Assembly (NCBI RefSeq): GCF_003597395.2
Contig: NC_133774.1
Location: 45,924,346-45,988,345, forward strand
DNA length: 64,000 bases
Direction: 5' to 3'
From: Chelonoidis abingdonii
Taxonomy: Eukaryota > Chordata > Testudines > Testudinidae
How positions within the stretch are numbered: the stretch's first letter is position 1; every line of letters begins with the position of its first letter. The notes under the pieces were generated by a model. The model was not told the origin of the DNA and did not search any database. It was given only the letters and a program-made list of their open reading frames with translations. Below are positions 1-61,748 of this stretch, one piece after another. The translations under genes were made by a program, and so were the position numbers.

Positions 1-54
1 TTTAAAAATTAATAATAATAATTAATAATGTTAAAGGTGAGTGTGCCATTAGAG

Positions 55-222
55 TCCCTATTTGTCTGTAAAAGCAGGAAAGAATCCTGTAGCATCTTAT
101 AGGCTAACAGATGTTTTGGAGCATGAGCTTTCGTGGGTGAATACCCACTTCATCAGATGCAACTTTCTTTGCTGCTTTTACAGATCCAGACTAACATGGC
201 TACCCCTCTCATCCTCTTTGCC
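55..222 (-). mobile_element. Penelope-like element terminal fragment (copy A)
   Basis: This is a minimal Penelope-like element (PLE) relic holding both ends of the element and no coding sequence. The left arm (tctgtaaaagcagg, from 65) is repeated in inverted form at the right (tgcttttacaga, about 175-186), followed by the terminal 'gatccagactaacatggct' seen in related form at 12189-12215. Between the arms lies a hairpin, gtgggtgaatacccac (133-148), bordered by tttc and ttcatcag. On the minus strand this reads CUGAUGA, stem, GAAA, the core of a hammerhead ribozyme, a motif known from PLEs. Orientation is inferred from the copy at 5985-6735, which carries an endonuclease remnant on the minus strand. 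The family call rests on that copy and on recognition of this high-copy turtle repeat. Confidence 0.75.
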
Positions 223-765
223 TGATTCACGAAGCCAAGGTGATGGCTACTAGGAATGTTGTTTTCACAGACAGATACAGAAGCAAGCATGTGGCCATGT
301 GCTCAGAAGGAGGCTTTGTAAGGCACTTCAGGACCAGATTAAGGTCCCATGTCTGACTTGTGAGAAGTTATCCATACCATATCCATTCATGCCTAGGATG
401 TCTGATTTGTGAGAAGTTATCCATACCCTTGAAGAATTTCTGTTGTAGGATGAGTGCATACAAAGTAGCGGTCTGTCTTATGATGAAAGGCAGTTATGGC
501 TGCAAAATGTACCTTTACTGAATTTAGAGATAATCCTGATCTAGGATGTAATCTAGTGCTAGTGGGAGGGGAGAGCATGTGGGGGTAATGTGTTGAGTTA
601 CACCAGATTTGGAATCTTCCATTACTGCATGGTCAAGGGTGGCTGAGAAGCAACTGAGGACAGTTCACCTACACAGCATTAGGTAGCCTAGACATAAGGC
701 ATGAGACAGGGAGAATGCATGTGCAGGCCAAATAGCCACTGCTACCTAAAATCTCCAATCTGAAG
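223..765. other. Unassigned sequence with a 49-bp tandem duplication
   Basis: No gene or known repeat is recognised. A unit starting tgtctgacttgtgagaag (350) is repeated almost exactly at 399, with period 49 bp and one mismatch over 29 bases. Confidence 0.4.
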
Positions 766-1200
766 CACCGGGATGCAGATATATCTACAAAAGCAGCAAA
801 GAGTCCTGTGACACCTTATAGACTAATAGACGTATTGGAGCCTGAGCTTTTTGTGGGTGAATACCCACATTGTCAGATGCATGTAGTGGAAACTTCCAGA
901 GGCAGGTATAAATATGCAAGCAAGAATCAGGCTAGAGATAACAAGGTTAGTTCAATCAGGGAGGATGAGGCCCTCTTCTAGCAGTTGAGGTGTGAACACC
1001 ATGAGAGGAGAAACTGCTTTTGTAGCTGACTAGCCATTTGCAGTCTTTGTTTAATCCTGAGTTGATGGAGTCAAATTTGCAGATGAACTGAAGCTCAGCA
1101 GTTTCTCTTTGAAGTCTGGTCCTGAAGTGGTAGGGGTTTGTTTGTTTTGTTTTTGCTGCAGGATGACTACCTTTGGCAAAATAAACATAAGGTTTATTTA
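766..1200 (-). mobile_element. Penelope-like element 3' part (copy B)
   Basis: The terminal segment (about 780-885) has the same order of blocks as copy A: aaagagtcctgtgacacctt, a 'taatagacgtattggagc' block, then the hairpin gtgggtgaatacccac at 855-870. It is followed by a 3'UTR-like stretch and, on the minus strand (about 1040-1130), by eroded coding sequence corresponding to the PLE C-terminus; the matching block in the 5985-6735 copy is 'cagtctctctttggagtctg'. The ribozyme-like core is decayed here: CUGAUGA reads CUGACAA and GAAA reads AAAA. This is a dead, 5'-truncated copy. Confidence 0.65.
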
Positions 1201-2719
1201 GACAAAAGGAACACTGTCCAAGACAGGCCTTGCAGGTACAGACAACAAGACTCTCTCAGTTAGGTCCATCTGGGGGAGGACAGGGAGGCAGCCAGAGCCC
1301 TGTTGGCAGGCCAGAGCCCCATCTGGGCTCCCTTCATTTTCCCAGCCAGCTCCAAACACATCTAGAGTGGAGCATCCATAGAGATGCTACTTAAAGAAGA
1401 AAAATCTACTTTTCTACAGGAGCCTTTGGCTGAACTCCTTTGCACCTGAAAAAGTGCAGCTCCTTTCCTTGCTGCTTACAGTGCCTGCAGGATCTGAGCC
1501 AGGAGCTTCTGCAGAGCCCACACTCTTCATTGTAGCTAAATTAGCCATAGGCAAAAAGTATAGAATACTACAATTTTTGAGAAATGCTATGCTTTGCAAT
1601 CACTACTTTTTATATATGCTCAGTTAGTTGCCTGGGTAACATTAACTGTGGCATATCCTGACTGATGAGTGTCTAGCTGTGAAACCTTAGCTTTCTTAGC
1701 ATGGTTTTGTGTTTGGTATGTAGCTGTGGTACATTATTTAGTCACAGGTCTGCAAGACATCCTTGCAGTATAGATAAACTTATACCAGCACACTATTTTA
1801 TATTTAAATATAGCTATGCTCATATTGCATATCAGGGCCAAATTTTGACCTAGTAAATCTAAGTGTGTTCAAATCTGAAATGTACCTCCATTGAAATAAA
1901 TGAAGCAATAACAGGGATTAATTTAGGCCAAAATCTACAGCGAAGACTAGCTTTTTAAAAATGATACCCATGTACTATACCTTGAAGTTCATTTAAAAAT
2001 CTGCATGTTCTGGGATGCAAGCCAAAACAGAGACTTAGCTCTAAAAGAAAATTTCTGTGTCCATGAAAAAGCCGCTTTCCTTGTGGAAAGCATATAAGGC
2101 TTTAATAATACAAAGAATTTAAATCCGATGTACATTAAGAAACAACAATAAATTAATATTCCAAAAAACAAATAATTTAAAAAAATTAGTTAAATGACAG
2201 TTTAAGTACCGACCCATTATTTACAAAACCCAGAAGCATAAGAGTCAGGAGATGAATAGAGAGCTTGATGAATGTTTTTTTTATAACAATAAACACATTC
2301 TTACCAAGTATATAGAACTACATTGTTTGTCTTAACATAACCTTAGTTGTAATCTAACAATCAGTTTTGCTTCTAGCAGCTATAAAGTGGTTCTTCTAAC
2401 GTGACTGTGGATCCCAGCATGGGTAGAAACATGCCTAGTGTCTGAACTCGGAATCTTTTGAATACCAGATCCAGGGGGGCCATCCATGTGCTTCCTTGTG
2501 CTCTTGTATGAGGGCATAAATGGCAGACCAGCCCCAATCCTCCCTCAGTTCTGTTATCACCCATAGCAGCAAGACTGATCCTGGATTCTATCTGAACTGC
2601 TTGGACTGTGAAACACAAAAAGCTAACATTTTTTGTGAAGAAATATGTTCTTTTTAAAAATGAAGTTCTTGTTCATTTTTCAAATTTTCAATTGGATGTT
2701 CAAAACTAAATGGCAGACC
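1201..2719. other. Unassigned intergenic sequence
   Basis: No gene is recognised. Short open frames at 1414-1599, 1989-2171 and 2373-2618 (minus) show no recognisable domain and are regarded as chance. Around 1830-1935 there is a weakly palindromic block (gggccaaattttgac ... ttaggccaaaatct) resembling a common amniote short inverted-repeat element. Confidence 0.4.
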
Positions 2720-4170
2720 TAAACACTCTGGGTTTGTCATACCCTTCCCACAATGGCCTGATGCCACAGCAAATGCCTCTGATCCCTGCCTTGGTGAAGG
2801 GCACATCCCAGACTAATACTCCATTTATCATTCCTTCTCATCCTGCACCTGGAAATTGAGAGACATAAGGTTCAAACTGTACCTGTTGGGCATCCCCTTC
2901 CTGGATTGCTCTAAGTCTGGGGAGGAGACTATCATCTGGCAACTGACCCCATCTCTGGCTCCAGCAGCAAGAAGAGTCAAGTGAACACCTAATATTAGCA
3001 CAGGGAGCTCTGTGGAGTCTTCAGCATTGGGAACTTTGGCACCATCAATGTCATCACTGACCTTTGGATAGAGAGACCCCACACTGTCCACTTTGACTAT
3101 AGAGTGTCACAATTGCTCTGAGTGTAAACGCAGCTCGGTAGGGCTTTCCTGCTCCTCTCAAAAAGAGTACTTGAAGTCTAGGAACAAGTCCTTAATACCT
3201 TACCTGACTTCAAGCGACAGAGGCAGGCCACTAACAGGGAAAAAGGAACAGATCATACCAGTGCCAGCGCTGATGCTGAGAGCTGTCTCAGTACCAACTG
3301 TGACACCAACTAAGCAAACCATTCCAGGTACTGAGGTACGTGTATTCAAAGATCTACCCTCACCCTTCCTTCCAGCACCAGTACTGATGCCTACTCCTGC
3401 GGCACCAACAGAACTACACTCAGTGCTGTTTGCCATTCCCTGAGGAATATGCATCTCCCCTATTTAGAATAAGGAGCACTCCCCAGAGGGAGGGGAGTGG
3501 TACCTTTAAAGTGTACTGTAGACGTTCCCAGTACTGGGTCTGGGCCCAGCTGGGTCAGTTTTCTTGGGCCACCCACAATCTGGCCAATAACAAAACAATG
3601 TGCTGCCATGGCTGTACTGAGGTGGTACTTCTCACAGGTCCTGGAGTGGAGCCCTGTCACAAAGCCCCTTTCTTGTCACCAGAGGAACCTCCACATGAGA
3701 GGATAAAACAAGCCCAAGAGAAGCTCCAGCTTCCCTCTCTGCCTAAAGAATCAACCTCTTTCCCTGACGGGATAGTTGCCTCTTCCCTGACGCTGGCCAT
3801 GGATGACTTTTGACCCTTCAGAAGTTGCTTTCCAGCACAGCAGACACCTTGCAAATTGAGATGACAGTACTCAAAGAGAACATGCATAAACTGATCAATA
3901 TCCTCAGTGCCCACAAGGATCTCTCTATCAATTAACAAACACATTTGGGGGCCCTGTAAAAGAACTTTGGCACACCCCAGCCTTGCTTCCTCCAATCTTA
4001 ATAGTGGCCTTCATTTGCTTCAAGTCCAGTCCAAGGGAATTGAACAGTCCTTTGTTTCCCACACTAGGATCGCTTGTTTAGTGATCCAAGAAAAGACAAG
4101 ACCCAGTACAGGGATGCCAAAAAATAAGGATCCTATAATAAGGTGGCTTGGTGGTCTGAGCCTCTGACTC
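2720..4170 (+). pseudogene. Degenerate DIRS-type retroelement gag-like relic
   Basis: This is a block of broken frames that looks like the first ORF of a turtle DIRS-type tyrosine-recombinase retroelement. Around 3093-3250 the reading is Cys/Ser/Lys-rich (HNCSECKRS...). At 3250-3440 follows a Pro/Thr/Val-rich low-complexity stretch built on repeated 'ccagtac/ggtac' codons (...VPTVTPTKQTIPGTE...). A third part (about 3885-4000) reads LINILSAHKDLSIN then a stop and GAL-KNFGTPQPCFLQS, which resembles the helical domain of these gag-like proteins. In-frame stops and frame changes occur throughout, so it is not functional. No RT, RNase H or recombinase domain is visible. The family assignment comes from memory of turtle repeats and is moderate; a diverged LTR-element gag is the alternative. 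Confidence 0.45.
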
Positions 4171-4195
4171 TGTTTTTACTGGGCTGATAGAGAGA

Positions 4196-4318
4196 CCAAT
4201 GAGGAGTCCGGTGGCATCTTAAAGACTAACAGATTTATTTGGGCATAAGCTTTCGTGGGTGTGTTTTGTTTTTTTTAAAAAAACAAAACAAAACACCCAC
4301 TTCTTCAAATGCCCAGTG
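4196..4318 (-). mobile_element. Penelope-like element terminal fragment (copy C) with expanded palindrome
   Basis: PLE terminal blocks are present in order: gaggagtccggtggcatctt, aaagactaacagatttattt, gggcataagctttcgtgggt. The central hairpin, 16 bp in copies A, B and F, is replaced here by an AT-rich inverted repeat of about 46 bp (4255-4301) running from gtgggtgtgttttg through T and A runs to aaaacacccac. The minus strand keeps GAAA but the CUGAUGA box has decayed to TTGAAGA. Confidence 0.65.
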
Positions 4319-4857
4319 TGGCCTGGATAGGGTCCCAGCTGAGTCAGTTTTTTTGCTGGTAACCCCTCATTCTTTCTGACCAAGGGAATCTGGGTGGGTA
4401 GAAAGTCCCAGGTTGTCTTGCTTCACCAAGTCCTGGTCCAGGGCCCTTAAAGTATAACAGTGTGGGATGGCCAGGACCCTGTTTACCCTCCGTTGGACAA
4501 CTTCTTCCCTCTGTTTGGGGCATGGCTGCTGTTGGGTTAAAGGCCTTTGCTTCAAACCCCTCCAATCTATGGGCTGATGCAGGTGGCCCTCTGGTGCCCC
4601 TGTATAGGGGTCTCCCTCTCTCTTGGGTAATGTCAAACAGGAAATGAAGCCAACAAATAGGTGCTAGACTGTGACCCAAGAACTCCTCCATGCCAGTTGG
4701 CATGGACGTTACAAGAATATCCTGATTCTGGTTCACCAAAGGATGTCATGTGAGGTCTTAAAGGAAAGCTAGGGTCATGCTGGAAATTAATTTTATGACA
4801 TGTATATACAGATACACACACCCCTCATTTATTGTGTGGGTATGTATACGCATACTA
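4319..4857. other. Unassigned sequence, possibly LTR-like
   Basis: No gene is recognised. Overlapping frames on both strands at 4344-4740 are open because of GC-richer composition and have no recognisable domain. The composition and the 'agtataacag', 'ctgtatagggg' blocks are reminiscent of a turtle LTR, but no terminal TG/CA pair or duplication was found. Confidence 0.25.
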
Positions 4858-5473
4858 GGACTGTCAATTAATCACAGTTAATGCCTGCAATTAACTGAAA
4901 ACAAAAATTAACATGTTAATTGTATTCCTCTGGGAGAAGAGGGAAGCATTGGTGGGGCTGAAACTCAGTGCTTAGTGGGTGGCAGTATGGGGCAGAAGGT
5001 AGGGGGTCACAATTTTTTCTAGTGGAAGGGGGGGATTTTTTTAAAGCCCAAATGGGGTCACCAGTGCAAAAAGTTTGAGAGAAACTGCCATAGAGAACAG
5101 GGGTCTGGTGAGCTCAACCTCCCTGCACCAGCCTCTCCTCCCCTGCTTCATGCCAAGTCCCTGAGGTAAATCCACACTCCCTTGCAAACGGTTCACTCAG
5201 CTGAAGGGAGTTATGTAAAAATAGTAGTAATCTTACATTTCTAAGTTCCACTTTCATGATAGATTGCAGTACACTACTTGTGAGGTGAATTGAAATACTA
5301 TTTTACAGTGCAAATATTAAAATATACTAAATATTTTGGCTGTTTTCTGTATTTTCAAATATACTGATTACACTTGGTACTGTGAATTGAACAGTGCTTA
5401 ATTTATATTTTTGATCTGTTATTTAACAGTGTGATTAAAATTGATTAATCACAATTTAATTGCTTGACAGCCC
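4858..5473. mobile_element. Non-autonomous DNA transposon with TA target duplication
   Basis: Terminal inverted repeats are GGACTGTCAA at 4858 and TTGACAGCCC at 5464-5473 (reverse complement GGGCTGTCAA, one mismatch), each followed outward by TA, the Tc1/mariner-type target duplication. Subterminal sequence is rich in mirrored ATTAATCAC/GTGATTAAT blocks. No transposase remnant was found. The 4935-5200 part (ggcagtatggggcagaag ... agtttgagagaaactgcc) looks foreign to the AT-rich ends and ends like a hAT terminus, so an old nested insertion is possible. Confidence 0.6.
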
Positions 5474-5649
5474 TAATATATACTGAAAATGTTCTAAAGT
5501 TTGCATCAAGGCAGAGTTGACAGACAAGTTTTCCACAAGGGATGTTAATTTCAATTTCAACGGAGATGGGTGAATAAAGTATTGTCTCATTCACAGTGGG
5601 GTCTCCATTACCTATCTAAACTGAATGCAGATGAAGGATTGTAAGAAGT

Positions 5650-5984
5650 TTAGGAAAAACAACAAGGAGTTCTTGTGGTACCTTGGAGATTAACAAATTT
5701 ATCTGGGCATAAGCTTTTGTGGGCTAAAATCCACTTCATCAGATGCATGGCGTGAAAAATACAGTAAGGGATGTGAAGATGGGAGTTGCCTTACCAAGTG
5801 GGGGGTTAGTCCTAATGAGGCCAATTCAATAAAGGTGGAAGTGGCCTATTCTCAACAGTTGACAAGAAAGGGTGAATATCAAGAGAGAGAAAATTACTTT
5901 TGTAGTGCTAACAATGGCCATTTCCAACAGTTGACAAGATGGTGTGAGTATCAGCAGAGGAAAAAGTTCTTTTGTAAAAAGAAC
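5650..5984 (-). mobile_element. Penelope-like element 3' end (copy D)
   Basis: The terminal segment (5656-5752) has aaaacaacaaggagttcttg, aacaaatttatctgggcata and a hairpin gtgggctaaaatccac. It is followed by a 3'UTR-like region to 5984 with two imperfect repeats of a unit beginning caacagttgacaaga (about 5856 and 5930). On the minus strand CUGAUGA is intact but GAAA reads AAAA. No coding part remains. The fragment abuts copy E directly, consistent with E having inserted into D. Confidence 0.65.
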
Positions 5985-6735
5985 AGGAGTACTTGTGGCA
6001 CCTTAGAAACTAACAAATTTATTTGAGCATAAGCTTTTGTGGGCTACAGCCCACTTCATTGGATGCATAGACTGGAACATAGAGCAAGAAGATATTTATA
6101 CATACAGAGAACATGGAAAGGTGTAAGTAGCCATACCAACTGTAAAAGGCCAATCAGCTGAGATGAGCTATCATCAGCAAGAAGGGAAAAACTTTTGAAG
6201 TGATGATCAAGAGGACCCATAGAAGGTGTGAGGATACTTAACATGGGGAAATAGATTCAATTAGTGTAATGGCCTAACTATTCCCAGTCTCTGTTCAAAC
6301 CTAAGTTGTTTATGTCTAATTTGCATATTCAAGTTCAGCAGTCTCTCTTTGGAGTCTGTTTTTGAAGTTTTTTGTTGTAAAATTACCACCTTCAAGTCGG
6401 TCACTGAGTGGTTAGAAAGATTGAAGTGTTCTCCGACTGGTTTTTGAATGTTATGATACTTGATGTCACATTTGTGTCCATTTATTCTTTTGCGTAGAGA
6501 CTGTCCGATTTGGCCAATGTATACGGCAGAGGGGCATTGCTGGCACATGATGCCATATATCATTGGTAGATGTGCAGGTGAACGAGCCCCTGATGATGAT
6601 GTCATCAGTGTAGCACAAGTAGAGTAGGGCAGTAGGGGATGCCCCTGCTCTAGAGCTGAGGAAGCATTTTTAGTCAGCCATAAAAATGTTGGTACACAAG
6701 GACTCCTTGTTGTTTTTGCTGATACTGACTAACAT
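5985..6735 (-). mobile_element. Penelope-like element, internally deleted (copy E)
   Basis: This is the most informative PLE copy. Its right end (about 6695-6735) and left end (about 5986-6055) carry the same terminal block in inverted orientation (caaggactccttgttgtttt against aacaggagtacttgtggcac). Between them, on the minus strand, is a GIY-YIG endonuclease remnant (6261-6605) and then a 3'UTR. The reverse transcriptase has been deleted: only about 90 bp separate the endonuclease from the 5' end. The hammerhead-like core is decayed (CCAAUGA, AAAA). Confidence 0.75.
6261..6605 (-). pseudogene. GIY-YIG endonuclease domain remnant of Penelope-like element
   Basis: The frame encodes about 114 residues and matches the C-terminal endonuclease module that PLEs carry after their telomerase-like reverse transcriptase. 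Visible features in order: MCQQCPSAVYIGQIGQSLRK (Cys pair and a YIG motif), SLRKRINGHK with the conserved Arg and His, and PVGEHFN downstream with the candidate acidic catalytic residue. The last part (LLNLNMQIRHKQLRFEQRLG) is a basic tail. In PLEs this domain nicks target DNA for target-primed reverse transcription. The reverse transcriptase upstream is missing, so the fragment cannot transpose. The open frame probably reflects relative youth, not selection. The ATG is not a real start; the natural start lies in the deleted RT region. Confidence 0.75.
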
Positions 6736-9700
6736 CCAAAATTATTTTCAGAGTGGTAGCTGTATGCTGCAGCTATGTCACAGACCACCAGTCTTAAACC
6801 CTAATTCTCAGGGCTCTTAGGAGTTGGTAGTTTCCAACCTGCCAACAGTTGCCACAATAGAAGCTGAACCCTGATGGAGGACTCCAGTCCTGGAATCTGA
6901 TTAGCAGAATGTTGGAGGTCCACTGAGCTGCCCTTGCAGAGCTTGTTCCTCTCTGCCTGCTGGGGATAGAGGGCTGAGGGGGATCTGTCCTTCTCATGCT
7001 GTACCCTGTCACCCCAGGCACATTTCCAGGTCTCTCAGCCCCTCTCTCCAATAGTCAGGCCTGAGCATGAAGCAGAGGGGGTGGGACAGAGCCGCTTCTC
7101 CTGCCAGGTGTGAGGGTGGCCACTCTGGATTGCTGCCTCTATGCAGCGCAGCAGCTGCCTGTGAGATCCCAGCTGGGGAAGTGATGGCAGCCTTCCCTCA
7201 CCGCTGTGGGCACACCCAGGTCCAGCTGCTGGGAAGAGTGGGGGCCTCTGGTTGTGCTTCCCCTCTCCTCCCCCACCCCCGGCATGTTTCTGGCTTGCTC
7301 TGCCCCACTTCCTGGCAGCTGGGCCTGGGCAGGGAGTGGAGGGGGTAGGCCACTGCTGCCTCCCCAGCCAGGCTCTTGCATGCAAAATAAAGCACCCTGC
7401 AGTGACTGTAACCTTGGCCAGGCCTCTATCTCCTGAGTTAAAGGAAAATCTGCTAGAAGTCAGCTAAATAAATAACTTTATGTTCTTTCTAAGCTGCAGC
7501 CAGCTATTAAGGATAACCTTCTCACAATGTGCCTACCTGCTCCTACTTTGGGTGCTGCAACAATACCCATTCCAAATTAAGAGAACAAAACTGGGACCCA
7601 AATGATCCCCACTAAAAATCATGGATGATGTTACTTTTTTCCCCACAGATCTTTTTTCAAATACAGGTGGCACATTGGTTTTTAACATGTAGCTCAGATC
7701 ATTTGATTTTTCTTCAGACTTTACAGAGATGTTCCTCTTTGCCTTCAGTTTTATTCTGGCATTTTTTTCAGGACAAACAGTTTTCTAAGTCATCATTATA
7801 GAGGGGATAAAATAGGGCTCTGAAATGGAAGCTGACTTCAACTTTATTTAGGGAGAGGCTACCACTTCTCCATAATACATTGCATCAGATTCAGGCAACC
7901 TCAGGCTTTCTTGTGAGTGATATATTAATAAATTTTCTTTGAATTATTTATAATGTTGCTGTGCAAACTAGTTATAGTATTAGGAGTCCTAGAAATGTCA
8001 GATTTCTAAAAAAGTATATTGGTAAACATACATAATGCAAAATACTACATTAATGCAATATTGAGGCTGTCTTTAAACCTACTAAGGTAGGAAACCCAGA
8101 GTTAAGGTTCCCATGACAACCTTTATGTATGCAGTGCTATGGTTTTAATTACCTGCTTTATGTATAACTCTATAAGCACCCTATTTTCATTTTATGGATT
8201 TTAGGTACACTGATCACTATCTATCTATAGTACATCTTAATTACACTTGCAGTGCTCAGCAAATCTCATACATATGAGTTAACTATAGTAAATTGATGTA
8301 TAGAAATATCTTTCATAGTAATATTTAGTTGTCTGTGTTATATGCATCCAGACAAGATAATTATAGCTTACTTGTCTGCCCCACTGTAATGTATTGGTTA
8401 GTCCTGTTTCTCAGAGTTATAGTACCAGAACACCGATAACTCATTATAATATAGAGAGCTCCTAGAAGTCAAGGCAATATAAAGGATGAGGTAAACTGAA
8501 ACCAGTACTTAATGGTAAGTTGAATCAGAATGATGGTCACTTTATTCACCTCAGCATGAAATTATAGTTTCCATATCCTACACATTTACGTTGTTCCCAA
8601 CACTGGCATGTCCTTTACAAGGGCAGTGCTATTGCTTACTTTCCTTCTACTTCCTTCACAGACAGCTTGACTGACAGTGTGAAATCCTTGCAAAGCTCTT
8701 ATTAGGGTCCCAGGATCACTATATACCCATACAAAATTCAGAGTTACTTTTTGTGCGTTTCTGAGCCCTAGAAACGGGCAAGTTTTAGCTGCAGTTTTGC
8801 TGTACTTAACTTGATTATTGACTCTGCTAATCCTTTTAAGGGATGCACTGAACTTGAAACTTAGGGTTACTAGACTCTAGTACCTCAACCTCTTGACCTC
8901 TTTTGGATGAGATCTTGAAGGGTATAGGAGACTGCAGGGCAGATTATTTAGCTAAAGAGGACCTATCTCAGTGCAAGCAGGAAGTGAAGCACTGTTTGGT
9001 GAATTTTGTAGGGGATATTTATTTACAGGCACCTCTAGCAAGGTCATGTTTTCTGGCAGTGAGAATCTATTTTAGGGCAGGGAACCTGTGTGCCTTAAAT
9101 TCCATAAGTACTCAGTAAAAGATTATAATAAAAAGTGTTTGTAAAAAAGCAGATTTGAACACCATCTAGTGGTTTTCAGTTCTCAAACTACTAGTAGTAC
9201 CTCTGGCAAATCTGTAGGGATAATATTAAATGTACAAAACTTAAAAGGTGGGAATGAAAGAGTGTTTTTATGTGTGCAGTTGTCATTGGCAGTAACCTGT
9301 TTAGAAATCCATAAATAAGATTTTTTTAATTTGACAAACTAGCAAATATATTAAAGTAATCATCAGTTATTTAACACTGAATAAATATTTTGAACCTCCA
9401 CTAAAGTCACCAGTTACAAAGGGATAAAAATCCAGTGAACATCCTCAATGAACAACAGTCTGGAGGAGAAGAGCAAAGGGAAATGTTATATAACTTGGTC
9501 AGTAATAAAGCCTTGTACATAATTCTATTAAATACACTTGCAATATATCACTACACATAAATATCCTACATAGTCATAAGTGAGAAATTGTCATTACTGT
9601 GTTAGCATACAATTAATGCAAGATTGGAACATGACTACTCAAAGTGAAAGGGAAGAGGAGATCAAATTCAAATGGTTGCTTGACTTTAGCTACATTATCT

Positions 9701-10474
9701 AGCTAGGAAGAGACTCTATCCCATCCACTGGCTTTTAGCAAAGATTCAATAGGTCAAAATCTCTGCTGACATAAGTAGATAAGTTCCATTGATTTCAGTA
9801 GTGTTTCAACCATTTATGCAATCAGGGAATTTGGCCCAATATCGTATAAGGTACTGTCATTTGAAATTTGACTCTAGGAATTTCAACCTTCCAAACAATT
9901 TAAGCATCAGAACTGCAGTTGCCTTTTTTTATAAACAGCTTAAACCTTTAAGTCTTACTTTCCACCCTAAAAGTGTTTATCAAATTCCTATGAGGGATTA
10001 GTTTATTTCTTGCAGCTCCAGAATGGACAAAGAAACAGGCTGAGACAATAATTTATTTTCAATCCTATCAGCAAGTTGAAGACTCCACAGAGGCCACTCC
10101 TCTTCAAGCGGTAGAGACAACTATGTGGCATCTCCTGGAATCTTTTTTTAACAAGACAAAATACAGTGAGTTTCAATAGTGAATCCAGGTACCAGGCAAT
10201 CGGGTATAATTCCTAACTTTGGCCCTGATCTTCCAAGTGACTCTGTGTGGATGAAATCCTGAGCCCATGCAGAGGCCTTCTGACATTAATGAGACTTCAT
10301 ACAAATGTGATTCACCCCCACCCTGCAAATTGGGGCCCTTGATAGTATGCTGGCATCCTTAGGTATGAGAATAAAGAACATGGAGTCTTAGTAACATGCA
10401 AATTGCAACTAAAATCTCTCAAGGTTTAAAAAAAAAATCTGTATTTTAAAAAAAGGCTAATATAATATAAGTGG
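6736..10474. other. Unassigned intergenic sequence
   Basis: No gene is recognised. A GC-richer stretch at about 6940-7440 opens several overlapping frames on both strands (7035-7385 minus, 7067-7348 plus and others); they share no domain and contradict one another, so they are treated as compositional. Around 9745-9840 there is a weak palindrome (ctctgctgacataag ... gatttcagtag) like a short amniote inverted-repeat element. The rest is AT-rich with nothing supported. Confidence 0.4.
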
Positions 10475-10659
10475 AGATATACCAATCTCCTAGAACTGGA
10501 AGGGACCTTGAGAGGTCATTGAGTCCAGCCTCCTGCCTTCACTAGCTGGACCAAGTACTGATTTTTGCCCCAGATCCCTAAGTGGCCCCCGCAAGGATTG
10601 AACTCATAATCCTTGGGTTAGCAGGCCAATGCTCAAACCACCGAGCTATCCCTCCCCCA
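10475..10659 (-). repeat. tRNA-derived SINE with CR1-like tail (turtle polIII/SINE type)
   Basis: On the minus strand the element starts with a tRNA-like head, ggatagctcggtggtttgag (A box near 10638-10648), with B box gagttcaatcc at 10595-10605. A tRNA-unrelated body (gggggccacttagggatctg) follows, and the 3' tail ...gacctctcaaggtcccttcc resembles the 3' end of CR1 LINEs, matching the CR1 copy at 21741. That sharing is the known mechanism by which these SINEs borrow CR1 reverse transcriptase. Near full length, about 185 bp. Confidence 0.85.
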
Positions 10660-11699
10660 GTCAGCTACTGGGCTGACTCAGGACAAAGAATGTTGGAGAA
10701 TTAACTTAGAGTCAAAAATTGTAGAATTCTAGTATTCCTGAGCAAATCAACATTTACTAGTATTGGTAGAAGAAGAAAAAAGATACATCTTCTGTCTGAG
10801 TTAGAACTCTTAAGATTACTGAATATGTAGTTTAATTAGAAAACAAACTGTGTTTAGTGACAGTTAAGGTGGTAGCAGGACAAACCCTCACCTGTGGAAA
10901 ACCTTAAAAGCACAGAAACAAGACATTAAGGGCAAAGCTTCCTGCATTGATTTCCACATTCATATTATCTCCAACAATAATGCACTCCATAATTACTCCC
11001 ACTCACCTTTTACTTACATCAGTTGTAGACACCCAAAAGGAATAGGTACCCCAGCTTCATCAAACTTGTACCCTGATGCAAACCCTTGTGACCTCATGCT
11101 TTTCTATCATTGATCAGCATAGCTGATTGTTGCACATTCAGTGCATGTGGGATATTGTTTTGTCTTAACATTTTTGATATCCTGATCTTTTATACAGTTT
11201 TGATGTACCATGGTAGATAATTATGCAGAGACAAGGAAAATGAGAGCAGCACCTGCCTGGGAATCACAGAAAAACTGTACTGTTGAAGCTGCTCCTGACC
11301 GTGCCAAATCTCCTGCAGGATCTCTGAGGATGTGATGTTAGACAAAAAATTGAGGTACATTTTCTCTCCATTTAAAAGTGAACGGAATTACACACACAAA
11401 ACACAGTCCTCCATGATGAACTAGTAATGGCATGGCCTTTCAGCAGGAGCAAACTTCCATGAACAGAGGAGTCTGTCATCATTCTCCAAAACATAGCCTC
11501 TCATTGGCTTTTGAAAATGGATACAGCCAGGACTGGCTGCAGCAGCAAAAAATGCAAGTATGCTACCAGTTCTGCCTTTTGCACTCTTCTTTTGGGACCC
11601 AGTCTCTTCCTGTGTGAAGCATACGTTCTCAGCATTCAAAAATGCCTATGCTGGATAACTCCAAGTATGACAGCCAATTGTGACATTAGCTAGGGTACA
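10660..11699. other. Unassigned intergenic sequence
   Basis: No gene or well-recognised repeat is seen. The overlapping frames near 11421-11693 on both strands lack domains. Confidence 0.35.
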
Positions 11700-12913
11700 A
11701 TCTGGATTGATGGACAGCTGTGTCCTCTCAATTCTTCCAACCTGGGGTGCTATTTACTCTGTTTGCTGTGAAAGCAACCACTTCTAGCCTGCTCTCACAC
11801 AGTTCCAGCTATGTGGGATGAGTGCCTGCCACTCAGGAATTGCATTGCAGGCCAACACCAGCAAACTCCCAGTCCCAGTCTTTCTCCCCAGCAATGTGCA
11901 TTTTGTACTACCCAGCACCCTCCTGGACAATACAAGCTCAGATAAAGTCCATCATATATTAGGGTTTGTGGATATCATTATCCCAAATGGAGTTTTCCCA
12001 AACTCTTCAATCCAAACACACTGATTTAGATAAAACAGCAAAACCAATGTATTAACTACAAAAAGATAGAGTTTAAGTGACTACAAGTAATGATGCATGT
12101 GTTAAAATTGGTTACAAAGAAGTAAAAGATGAAGTGACATCCTTGCTTTGTATTCACTTAGCTTAAGTTACAAGTATCAGAAGGGTAGCCGTGTTAGTCT
12201 GGATCTGTAAAAGCACCAAAGAGTCCTGTGGCACCTTATAGACTAACAGATGTACTGGAGCATGAGCTTTCATGGGTGAATACCCACTTCATCAGATGCA
12301 TGTGAGAGACAAAGCAAAGGTCTCTCTCACCAGTGTTCCAGCAATCTTACTGGCTGAACCTCTTTTAATCAGGATCTCTTCCCCCTTCCCTCTGTCCAGT
12401 GCTGCTTCCTTTGTTCTTCAGGGGTTGATGCTGCCATGGGTAGAGAGCAAGGGAGAGATGACTTGGGGCACCTGCCCTTGTCTCTTATAGCCCTTTCTAT
12501 TGCACAAGAATCATCTATAGTTGATGTTCCGGAGACAGAAAGTCAGTATGGTCAGGGACCGTAAGCTGCTGCTTTGTCAAAATGTAAATCTTTTGCCCAC
12601 ACCCTCTCTCTTGCTAAAGAGTGACCCCTTGATCAGGTGATGGTCCCTTTGATCCTGTTGACACCTAGCTGAGGTATGGTCTAGCCTTTCATCTCTGGAG
12701 AACTTGTTTGTGATTGCCCTCCAGAACATGTTGGAACATGTCTCAGTAATAATCACAGTGGAATCTTATATCTTTACATACAATGTTACCACTCAGATTT
12801 ACCAGGACAATAATGATCAGCAAATCATGAGTTTTCAAATGCTACATTACACTTTGTACAAAATTTAATATAGTCTTGTAAAAGGGATGAACATAGAGAT
12901 ACAGACTGTTACA
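11700..12913 (-). mobile_element. Antisense LTR-like retroelement fragment, interrupted by a PLE
   Basis: Read on the minus strand from 12913, the sequence begins TGTAACAGTCTG, an LTR-style TG start, and continues through blocks I recognise as a common turtle LTR (for example ttgctgatcattattgtcct and aagatataagattccactg). A possible TATA-like ctataagagacaagg lies near 12480. The PLE at 12175-12303 interrupts it. The far boundary is uncertain. Only LTR-like sequence is recognised; no gag, pol or env remnant was seen. Family (endogenous retrovirus or other LTR class) is not resolved. Confidence 0.4.
12175..12303 (-). mobile_element. Penelope-like element terminal fragment (copy F)
   Basis: This complete terminal segment starts at agaagggtagccgtgttagt and passes through aaagagtcctgtggcacctt and agcatgagctttcatgggtg to the hairpin ending in ttcatcagatgcatg. 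On the minus strand the hammerhead-like core is fully present: CUGAUGA, GUGGGU-AUUC-ACCCAU (one G-U pair) and GAAA. It is the best-preserved terminal copy with copy A. Confidence 0.75.
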
Positions 12914-13045
12914 CCCATTCTTGGCCAATGGTGGGAATTGAACTGGTGACTTCCAGAGGTTTTTAAAAAAAAAAAAAAAAAAGTATGCTCCTTAACTGCT
13001 TGAGCATGGCTCTCACCTTGAGAGCCATCACACATAGGCATCAAC
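12914..13045 (-). repeat. tRNA-like sequence split by an A-tract
   Basis: On the minus strand there is a B-box-like ccagttcaattcc (12933-12946) and, upstream, tgctcaagcagttaaggagc (about 12987-13006), which resembles a tRNA D-arm and anticodon stem. Eighteen consecutive A residues on the + strand (12965-12982) sit between the halves. It could be a degenerate tRNA-derived SINE head with an expanded homopolymer. Not a functional tRNA. Confidence 0.4.
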
Positions 13046-13402: not shown

Positions 13403-13975
13403 AGGTATGCACTGCATCTGGGAGTAAGCCTCCCAGCCCAGGTCACAGCTTCACGCTAGCATACTAAAAATAGCTGTGGAGACATTACAGCAAGGCTCTG
13501 AGGCTTTGTGTCAGAGACTGAGCACCAGCTTGTGTTGCAATGTCAAAGCACTGACTATACAGCTATTTTTAGCATGCTAGCGCAAGCCCCACTAGCAGGG
13601 CTGGCTTTAGGAAGTGCGGGGCCCCGGCAGGGATGACTTAAAAAAAACACGTGGGGCTTGTACTCACCGGGCGGTGCTCCAAGTCTTCGGCGGCACTTCA
13701 GTGGTGGGTCGTCCACTCGCTCCAGGTCTTCGGCTGCACTGAAGGACCCACCACTGAAGTGCCGCCGAAGACCCAGAGTGCCACCAGGTGTGTAAAAATT
13801 AAAAAGGTGCCTCTAGCCAGGGAAGGGATTCTCACCGGGCATGGGGCCCTCTTAGGTGTGGGGCCCGATTCAGGGGAATTGGTGGAATAGGCCTAAAGCC
13901 GGCCCTGCCCAGTAGCTCAAATCTGTGGATCTAGGCTAGGAGGCATGCTCCCACATGCAGCGTAGATATACTCAG
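13403..13975. mobile_element. Inverted-repeat MITE, split by a nested hAT element
   Basis: An outer element with long inverted arms: 13403-13480 (gcactgcatctgggag, gctagcatactaaaaatagctgt) is mirrored by acagctatttttagcatgct (13559-13578) and, beyond the nested element, by gggaggcatgctcccacatg and cagcgtagat (about 13940-13971). The right arm is separated into two pieces by the 13596-13907 insertion, giving the relative age of the two. Confidence 0.55.
13596..13907. mobile_element. hAT-type MITE with 8-bp target duplication
   Basis: The ends are cagggctggctttagg and cctaaagccggccctg, inverted repeats with one mismatch over 16 bases. Flanking octamers are cccactag (13588-13595) and cccagtag (13908-13915), 7 of 8 identical, the hAT target-site length. 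The interior holds a strong GC-rich hairpin: gtcttcggcggcacttcagt (13683 on) is mirrored by actgaagtgccgccgaagac (about 13754-13773). No transposase. Confidence 0.8.
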
Positions 13976-21740: not shown

Positions 21741-21839
21741 AGGGCTGGAAGGGACCTCAAGAAGTAATCGTGTTCAGTCCTTGGTACTGAGGCAATACCA
21801 AGTAAATCTAAATTATTTCTGATAGGTGTTTGTCTAACC

Positions 21840-22113
21840 CAGGGGTTGGCAACCTTTCAGAAGTGGTGTGCCGAGTCTTCATTTATTCAGTCTCATTTAA
21901 GGTTTTGCGTGCCAATAATACATTTTTAAAAGGTCTCTTTCTATAAGTCTTTAATATATAACTAAACTATTGTTGTATGTAAAGTAAATAAGGTTTTTAA
22001 AATGTTTAAGAAGCTTCATTTAAAATTAAATTAAAATGCAGAGCCCCCCAGACCAGTGGCCAGAACCTGGGCAGTGTGAGTGCCACTGAAAATCAGCTTG
22101 TTGCCTACCCCTG
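21840..22113. mobile_element. hAT-type MITE with perfect 8-bp target duplication
   Basis: Left end caggggttggcaaccttt, right end gttgcctacccctg. Flanking octamers gtctaacc (21832-21839) and gtctaacc (22114-22121) are identical. It sits inside the CR1 copy and splits the CR1 tail. A sister copy with more than 85% apparent identity lies at 61438-61748; this copy lacks about 37 bp near the right end (the cgtgccaccttcggcacatg region). Confidence 0.88.
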
Positions 22114-60600: not shown

Positions 60601-61437
60601 GGTGTATGTAGTGTGAAAAGCAAAATCTGTTAGCTTTTTCTGTAATTGAATAGACTGGATCTATTAGCCTCCAAAATGCTTTCAGATAGTGTAATGAATC
60701 TTAATCCTTATGATTAATGTCCGTTATCTTCAAATACCTTCTTCTTCCTGTACAGAGAATGTCTTTGTATATTGTAGTTGCTTCCATGAAGGTTGTAAAA
60801 CAACAAGACCCTAACCCTATGTTATATAGTTTTTAATAGCAATTATACTCAGCAATATCAGATGATAGGTACTAGTGTAGCATTATCTAGAAATAGAGTA
60901 AGAAGTGCTTTCCAAAAATTCAGTGAATTGTTTTTAGAGCTGGTTGTCTGTGCTTGGATTCTCACTGACCTAGTGGCTCGAAAGAAAGTGATAGTGTTCG
61001 TGCTAGCTTTTTCAAAATGTTGTCTTTTTATATATCCATAGATAGCTGCTTTAAGTTTTGTGTATATGTATGTGTGCTGTCAGTGGCATAAGTTCTGCCA
61101 AAATGCAAGTAATATTTGAAGTTGAAATACTGCCTTCCCTAACAGTAAACAATTGTTGCTATAGGATGGCTGTTCACTTGTTTATCTGAGATGAACTGAG
61201 ACCATGAAAATTTAATTTCTAGTGGACAGTTGTACATGTCCCACAATGTAATACCACAACTCCATCCATTTATTTGCATCCTCGTTGGCAATTGCAGAAG
61301 AGGCCAAGGATTGAAGGGGCATAGAGAGTGAATAGTCTCTTACTGCTAGAAGAGGCCCCTCCAAGTCATGATTAAGTTTCATTGATGGAGCATTGCCCCT
61401 GAGTGTGCCCTTTCTACATCTGTTTGTGAGTATAGGA

Positions 61438-61748
61438 CAGGGGTCGGCAACCTTTCAGAAGTGGTGTGCCGAGTCTTCATTTATTCACTCTGATTTAAGG
61501 TTTTGCATGCCAGTAATACATTTTAATGTTTAGAAGGTCTCTTTCTATCAGTCTCTAATGTATAACTAAACTATTGTTGTATGTAAAGTAAATAAGGTTT
61601 TTAAAATGCTTAAAGAAGCTTCATTTAAAATTAAATTAAAATGCAGAGCCCCCTGGGAGCAGTGGCCAGGAACTGGGTAGTGTGAGTGCCACTGAAAATC
61701 AGCTTGCGTGCCACCTTCGGCACATGTGCCATAGGTTCCCTACCCCTG
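61438..61748. mobile_element. hAT-type MITE with perfect 8-bp target duplication
   Basis: Left end caggggtcggcaaccttt, right end taggttccctacccctg. The flanks gtatagga (61430-61437) and gtatagga (61749-61756) are identical. This is the fuller sister of the 21840-22113 copy and keeps the subterminal cgtgccaccttcggcacatg hairpin lost there. Confidence 0.92.

Follow-up and report, generated by a model that had tools for sequence, protein, structure and literature searches.

The hammerhead-like motif of copy A

The 64,000-nucleotide stretch of the Chelonoidis abingdonii genome analysed here (contig NC_133774.1, positions 45,924,346 to 45,988,345; the window) carries near its left end a short dispersed repeat, termed copy A, which consists of two oppositely oriented arms of a Penelope-like retroelement, one of them bearing a hammerhead ribozyme-like motif on the minus strand. 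From the sequence and from its variation among related copies, we consider it likely that this motif is a minimal type I hammerhead, whose stem III could form only between two RNA molecules through a self-complementary AGCU, thus giving a double hammerhead. Copy A itself is a relic of an insertion, and the record of such insertions in the genome is the more interesting part of the finding. The features of copy A are as follows.

125-156, minus strand: hammerhead core, from C3 (156) to C17 (125), read from the sequence; cleavage predicted between 125 and 124
157-160, minus strand: 5' strand of stem I, GCAU (positions 2.4 to 2.1); sequence and covariation
121-124, minus strand: 3' strand of stem I, AUGC (positions 1.1 to 1.4); sequence, covariation and minimum-free-energy fold of the monomer
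149, minus strand: extra A between A9 and stem II
133-148, minus strand: stem II, GUGGGU/ACCCAC, 6 bp with loop AUUC; sequence
126-129, minus strand: palindrome AGCU (A15.1, 15.2, 16.2, U16.1), candidate intermolecular stem III with a conserved U16.1
65-161, minus strand: short-tailed (S2) arm with the hammerhead, reference positions 296-392
165-212, plus strand: long-tailed (S1) arm in the opposite orientation, an inverted repeat aligned to reference positions 373-415; outer end placed by eye
57-64, no strand: possible target-site duplication, left copy, CCTATTTG
213-220, no strand: possible target-site duplication, right copy, CCTCTTTG

Read on the minus strand from 160 to 121, copy A is GCAU CUGAUGA A GUGGGU AUUC ACCCAC GAA AGCU C / AUGC, where the slash marks the predicted cleavage position. 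Re-reading of the sequence returned the core, CUGAUGA-A-GUGGGU-AUUC-ACCCAC-GAAA, exactly as a preliminary description of this DNA had given it for 129-156 of the minus strand, and all elements of the minimal type I consensus are present (CUGANGA...GAA, A15.1-U16.1 and H17). The same description had called stem I weak and had built stem III from GC-UCAU-GC; neither assignment is retained here. The GCAU that precedes CUGAUGA pairs perfectly with the AUGC that follows the re-read cleavage position, and the proposed GC-UCAU-GC helix would consume this very AUGC, which belongs to a stem that covaries at two of its pairs. With stem I assigned to GCAU/AUGC, only AGCU is left for stem III; since it is too short to close on itself and is self-complementary, it would pair between two RNAs. 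The doubt previously expressed about activity in cis is well founded.

The minimum-free-energy fold of the copy A monomer consists of stems I and II and one isolated pair. Two such RNAs can form two hammerheads that share a single 4-bp stem III, with stem I also intermolecular, and the predicted energy of this arrangement is -24.9 kcal/mol. Cleavage, if it takes place in the living cell, would be expected between C17 and A1.1 (125 and 124) of the paired RNAs. According to the relevant part of one source (PMC6466107), newt satellite RNA, some viroids and Penelope-like elements are reported to form double hammerheads.

The hammerhead arm and the inverted, long-tailed arm lie head to head, and the bases that flank the whole insert (57-64 and 213-220) match at 7 of 8 positions; near two fixed points, agreement this close is reached by about 1% of pairs taken at random within the window. 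Read on the other strand, the CCTATTTG/CCTCTTTG pair extends to 11 bases, of which 9 match.

The repeat family and its Penelope-like identity

The core pattern GAAGTGGGN{2,12}CCCACGAAAGC has 17,573 matches in the 2.26-gigabase genome, compared with none for the reversed pattern, and 26,231 occurrences of a 23-mer from the tail downstream were counted (0 for the control). These counts indicate that copy A is one member of a huge repeat family rather than a chance hairpin. A scan of viral contigs with the pattern gave two matches, neither with a hammerhead core, and a scan of a phage collection gave no match. Six related copies, all on the minus strand, occur in the first 12.3 kb of the window, at about 161 (copy A), 881, 4313, 5747, 6067 and 12300. 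Copies B to F and the associated features are listed below.

784-881, minus strand: copy B, core decayed (G8 to A; GAAA to AAAA)
905-916, minus strand: TATA-like CATATTTATACC, upstream of copy B
4187-4313, minus strand: copy C, another subfamily, with a long stem II
5651-5747, minus strand: copy D, core decayed
5971-6067, minus strand: copy E, core decayed
6264-6635, minus strand: remnant of a GIY-YIG endonuclease end, 124 residues, upstream of copy E; protein relatives and Pfam
12173-12300, minus strand: copy F, near-intact core (closing pair of stem II is G.U) and long tail

The remnant upstream of copy E has eight related proteins, seven from turtles or lizards and one labelled Listeria. 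Three of the eight are named for GIY-YIG, two of these from Chrysemys picta bellii (GIY-YIG domain-containing), and the Pfam GIY-YIG model scores 16.9 bits on the remnant (E-value 0.0078), under its cut-off of 22.6. The family also shows the hallmarks of Penelope-like elements, namely two alternative 3' ends that define an optional tail, inverted copies, and target duplications, which span 8-15 bases in the inserts that have them. Taken together with the remnant, these traits make the assignment to a Penelope-like element well supported at the sequence level, and the placement of a hammerhead core within such an element, as the preliminary description had it, is likewise supported. The best match to the remnant, P0001, carries the Listeria monocytogenes label; it comes from a 345-base contig, with 71% identity over 56% of the query, and is likely to be a contaminant of a bacterial assembly.

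Conservation of the core and covariation of stem I

Variation in the family was assessed in two samples. (i) The motif-selected set holds 92 motif instances at 90 loci, drawn from 100 listed places among the 17,573, and its stem II and GAAA box are preselected. (ii) The tail-anchored set, not selected on the motif, holds 69 inserts after merging of duplicates, from 70 loci (L101-L170) among the first 100 listed of the 26,231 tail places; places already among earlier loci and the last places on the list were left out, high-scoring segment pairs below 80% identity were dropped, and 52 arms cover the hammerhead. All of the sampled places are from the beginning of a single contig and do not constitute a random sample of the genome.

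In the 52 tail-anchored arms, the core bases are retained in most copies: C3 in 48, U4 in 31, G5 in 49, A6 in 51, G8 in 45, A9 in 51 and G12 in 46. A15.1 is kept in all 52, and U16.1 is T in 52/52 of these arms and in 92/92 motif-selected instances. H17 is C in 43, T in eight and A in one of the tail-anchored arms and is never G in either sample, which is within the requirement of the hammerhead. Most of the GAAA box is likewise kept in both samples. The extra A between CUGAUGA and stem II, which had been noted as a caveat, is a real and fixed feature, being A in 52 of 52 arms. De la Pena and Flores reportedly described an extra nucleotide in a viroid hammerhead core in 2001, said to be an A before stem II in the plus strand of chrysanthemum chlorotic mottle viroid (CChMVd). 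The turtle motif would resemble that hammerhead in its one extra core-adjacent residue and differ from it in that the viroid form reportedly has its own stem III. In known hammerhead alignments, insertions between CUGAnGA and the adjoining stems do not exceed one or two nucleotides, according to the relevant portion of one source (PMC10085705).

Stem I occurs in three main states. In the tail-anchored arms these are GCAT/ATGC (30), GCGT/ACGC (seven) and TCAT/ATGA (four), and all four pairs are formed in 44/52 if G-U is allowed. The same states number 40, 12 and six among the 92 motif-selected instances, where, again with G-U allowed, four pairs are formed in 64 and three in 18. The states differ by double changes, from A-U to G-C at 2.2:1.2 and from G-C to U-A at 2.4:1.4. 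In the main subfamily of the motif-selected set (n=73), the frequency of pairing at both of these positions exceeds that in every one of 5000 shuffles, with the reservation that the shuffles ignore the relatedness of the copies and that each covarying state may represent a single event. The remaining two pairs show mostly one-sided variation and no covariation. In an all-against-all scan of mutual information, 2.2:1.2 ranked fifth, after pairs that merely separate the subfamilies.

The monomeric structure of the preliminary description, with GC-UCAU-GC as its own stem III, a weak stem I and cleavage after UC (between 119 and 118), is in our opinion very improbable. In copy A, its A-U, G-C and C-G pairs could indeed close a UCAU loop. 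The helix, however, takes the AUGC of stem I and, by eye, would leave the first four stem I positions of copy A entirely unpaired; moreover, its pair between 15.2 (G) and the C of AUGC is lost wherever that C is replaced by A, in 4/52 and 7/73 copies. In the set of 73, one side of this helix is fixed by the search pattern. An alternative outer stem, between G5-G8 and reference positions 344-347, was also tried and rejected: no covariation was found at its three testable pairs, and G8 is fixed by the pattern.

Position of the hammerhead motif and the 5' ends of the inserts

The tail-anchored inserts comprise 97 arms that can be placed on a reference copy of the element. The 5' ends of 41 of them fall at reference positions 285-300 (12 of 39 single inserts and 29 of 58 arms of head-to-head pairs), 20 start upstream of 285 (17 of these are singles), and the others start within or after the ribozyme. 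The reference copy carries a TATA box, TATATATA, at 263, which is 29-35 nucleotides ahead of the 5'-end cluster at 292-298, on the border of the ribozyme. This is the usual spacing between a TATA box and the start of transcription. On the simplest reading, the RNA would start at the 5'-end cluster, so that the hammerhead would occupy about its first 45 nucleotides, directly after the TATA promoter.

The possibility that short inserts start at the ribozyme cleavage site was considered and rejected, given that only two of the 97 arms begin at 331-335. The sole arm that starts exactly at 333, the cleavage position, is in L146, and it fits microhomology in an ATGCAT at the head-to-head junction instead; junctions in ATGCAT were seen at L044, L087, L115 and L146.

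Tandem hammerhead monomers of the retrozyme type do not occur in copy A, and a single array was noted among the loci. This array, in L170 (209-717, minus strand), consists of 2.2 units of 228 bp, in which the TATA region, the hammerhead, the tail and about 75 further bases are fused to the next TATA region. The L170 insert has AATACTTTAGTCA on both flanks (by eye); it begins at the cleavage position, with A1.1 or the base that follows, and terminates at S2. The junction of the array has two exact matches in the genome, both at L170. The array could be the product of reverse transcription round a small circular RNA, or of a later duplication of DNA.

Points that weigh against a working double hammerhead

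Several results, in addition to the reservations on covariation given above, weigh against the reading of the motif as a ribozyme that works in dimers. A different dimer of copy A RNA is predicted to be more stable than the double hammerhead (-32.1 versus -24.9 kcal/mol), and energy alone therefore gives the latter no preference. The core base U4 is C in 20/52 tail-anchored arms and in 27/88 of the motif-selected sample, so that a large subfamily has an off-consensus core. The two 5' ends of 97 near position 333 imply that cleaved RNA is not the usual template for insertion. Finally, the covariance-model search proposed in the preliminary description, which had counted the lack of a match against its own claim, returned no hammerhead: Rfam 15 gave no match in the whole window at gathering thresholds, no hammerhead family in window positions 1-13000 at E-values up to 10, and no hammerhead in eight further loci, including at least three (L061, L079 and L092) with an intact core and stem I, in searches that were run without a known minimal hammerhead as a positive control and whose sensitivity to forms lacking their own stem III is unproven. 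The best permissive matches were to the mir-1756 model elsewhere in the window and mostly to microRNA models on the loci.

These observations raise the alternative that the hairpin is no longer a ribozyme but an RNA structure or palindromic DNA retained because the Penelope protein binds it or because it serves to join the two ends of complementary DNA (cDNA), and is hammerhead-like by descent. We regard this as unlikely. The abundance of the U4-to-C subfamily, the rarity of insert ends at the cleavage site and the several head-to-head junctions in ATGCAT are all in its favour, as is the behaviour of Poseidon of Anolis carolinensis (PAc), in which hammerhead mutants insert normally in vitro (PMC11167929), a result with which the rarity of 5' ends at the cleavage site agrees. 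Against it, stem I covaries, H17 varies only as a hammerhead permits, U16.1 is conserved together with most of the GAAA box, and the related anole motif does cleave, cleavage being seen only in the presence of the protein (PMC11167929). We retain the dimeric hammerhead as the probable reading of the motif.

The insertion record

The element would give rise to many short copies if reverse transcription begins, at one of two sites, about 85-130 nucleotides downstream of the start of the transcript. Among the 69 tail-anchored inserts, 39 are single, of which 22 end at the long tail (S1) and 17 at the short tail (S2). Another 29 are head-to-head pairs, and one further insert (L115) has three arms. 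Of the pairs, 26 join one S1 arm to one S2 arm, two were called S1/S1 and one (L117, with a short end at 358) is unclassified; independent choice at the 22:17 ratio of the singles would lead one to expect S1/S2 in about half. One of the two S1/S1 calls, L158, is by eye an S1/S2 pair with a target duplication, in which the script overran the end. In an overlapping set, which includes motif-selected loci as well as L001-L008, chosen for their resemblance to copy A, the 43 pairs divide into 39 S1/S2, three S2/S2 and one S1/S1.

The two arms of a pair resemble each other more closely than do arms of different loci. The base at reference position 342, by which the subfamilies are told apart, is the same in both arms in 24/24 pairs and that at 373 in 21/23, where half would be expected at each; positions 374 and 375 are nearly invariant and uninformative in this respect. 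Over 40 positions the arms of one pair differ on average by 1.7, versus 2.5 between loci. This agreement indicates that both arms derive from one source. Target duplications (score at least 8) flank 14 of the 28 pairs with enough flanking sequence and 11 of 36 singles, versus 1.1% of shuffled flanks. The shared source and the duplications around the whole pair together argue that a head-to-head pair is the result of one insertion event. A target motif that would separate the S1 from the S2 side was not seen in the 25 target duplications found among 49 pairs.

We therefore favour, from the structure of the inserts, reverse transcription from both target strands, with S1 as the starting site for one strand and S2 for its partner; the template would be a single RNA or several RNAs that share a source. 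The alternative, self-priming (snap-back) of a single cDNA, was proposed for rotifer Penelope elements on the basis of head-to-head pairs with palindromes at their junctions (PMC3846280, in the part available). We think it improbable here, as 26 of the 29 pairs end at two different 3' sites, which one cDNA would not be expected to yield, target duplications flank the whole pair in 14 of 28, and the PAc enzyme cuts and extends both target strands (PMC11167929).

Dual priming can be extended into a fuller scheme, which we put forward tentatively and at somewhat less than even chances. Priming would take place at S1 from one nicked strand and at S2 from its partner, and the resulting cDNAs would meet at the 5' hammerhead, where the self-complementary stem I may also serve as a joining point. 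A large share of the many thousand copies would then represent single dual-priming events, and where an RNA carries two hammerheads in the sense orientation, cleaved or circular RNA might occasionally act as a template, as perhaps in L170.

Some individual loci deserve mention. The second pair called S1/S1, L155, has flanks that are also inverted, so that by eye a whole stretch of 428 bases is palindromic; it may be an assembly artefact and is included in the counts of arm concordance. L082 and L083 seem to represent a single locus that has been duplicated. In L004, L005, L007, L037, L130, L136 and L148 the long-tailed arm ends near the start site of the other arm, as if blocked; both detection and the way in which L002-L008 were selected bias this pattern, and we do not claim that S1 arms generally end close to the S2 site.

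Comparison with known elements

Minimal type I hammerheads in Penelope-like elements were described by Cervera and de la Pena in 2014 and by Lunse, Weinberg and Breaker in 2017 (as cited in PMC7761336, PMC6155905 and PMC7229834). According to the relevant parts of these sources, they share with copy A the location in a terminal repeat, the lack of their own stem III, dimers that are reported or thought to form, and thousands of dispersed copies in metazoan genomes. Copy A appears to differ in the fixed extra A after A9 and in the AGCU stem III with a CUC triplet, in a comparison that does not extend to the 2014 and 2017 alignments. To judge from these same sources, minimal dimeric hammerheads of Penelope-like elements are already in print, and the turtle type would be a further member, perhaps one already reported. 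Searches of the literature for hammerhead ribozymes together with turtles, with or without Penelope, gave nothing relevant by title and beginning of the abstract, and a search that joined Penelope, inverted, head-to-head and target-primed reverse transcription found nothing.

The closest parallel for the 3' ends is PAc, in which two start sites of reverse transcription define an optional tail of 30-40 bp (PMC11167929), like the two ends and optional tail of the turtle-type element. In vitro, no difference in the PAc start site was seen between the target strands (PMC11167929), whereas the turtle head-to-head inserts nearly always contain one of each. The rotifer Penelope elements also form head-to-head inverted copies with target duplications of 8-10 bp and a tail optionally present on one inverted repeat; that report, in the part available to us, deals with few copies, explains them by self-priming and does not mention a hammerhead (PMC3846280). 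The hepatitis delta virus-like hammerhead of a toad has the same unusual GAAAG...CUC closing pair before the cleavage site as copy A and, unlike copy A, resides in a circular RNA and has a perfect stem III of its own, as far as the consulted portion of the source indicates (PMC7936874).

The role of the minimal Penelope hammerheads is termed a mystery in the relevant part of a 2020 review (PMC7761336). In this regard, the 17,573 exact matches to the core pattern represent a very large natural sample within one genome. In the sampled copies, the ribozyme lies at what would be the start of the transcript, and cleaved RNA seems rarely to be the form that is inserted. The stem assignment, with its compensatory changes, can be tested at the bench, and the published anole in vitro system offers a direct test of the insertion mode of one S1 and one S2 arm.

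Other repeats in the window

The match to Rfam mir-1756 lies at 9750-9838 and scores 51.5 bits on the plus strand and 43.1 on the minus strand, against a gathering score of 100; it may be a repeat-derived hairpin. An inverted repeat at 13658-13797 has arms of 58 bases that are 81% complementary and are separated by a spacer of 24 bases. Two direct copies of another dispersed repeat, 83-89% alike, are found at 21827-22100 and 61425-61706.
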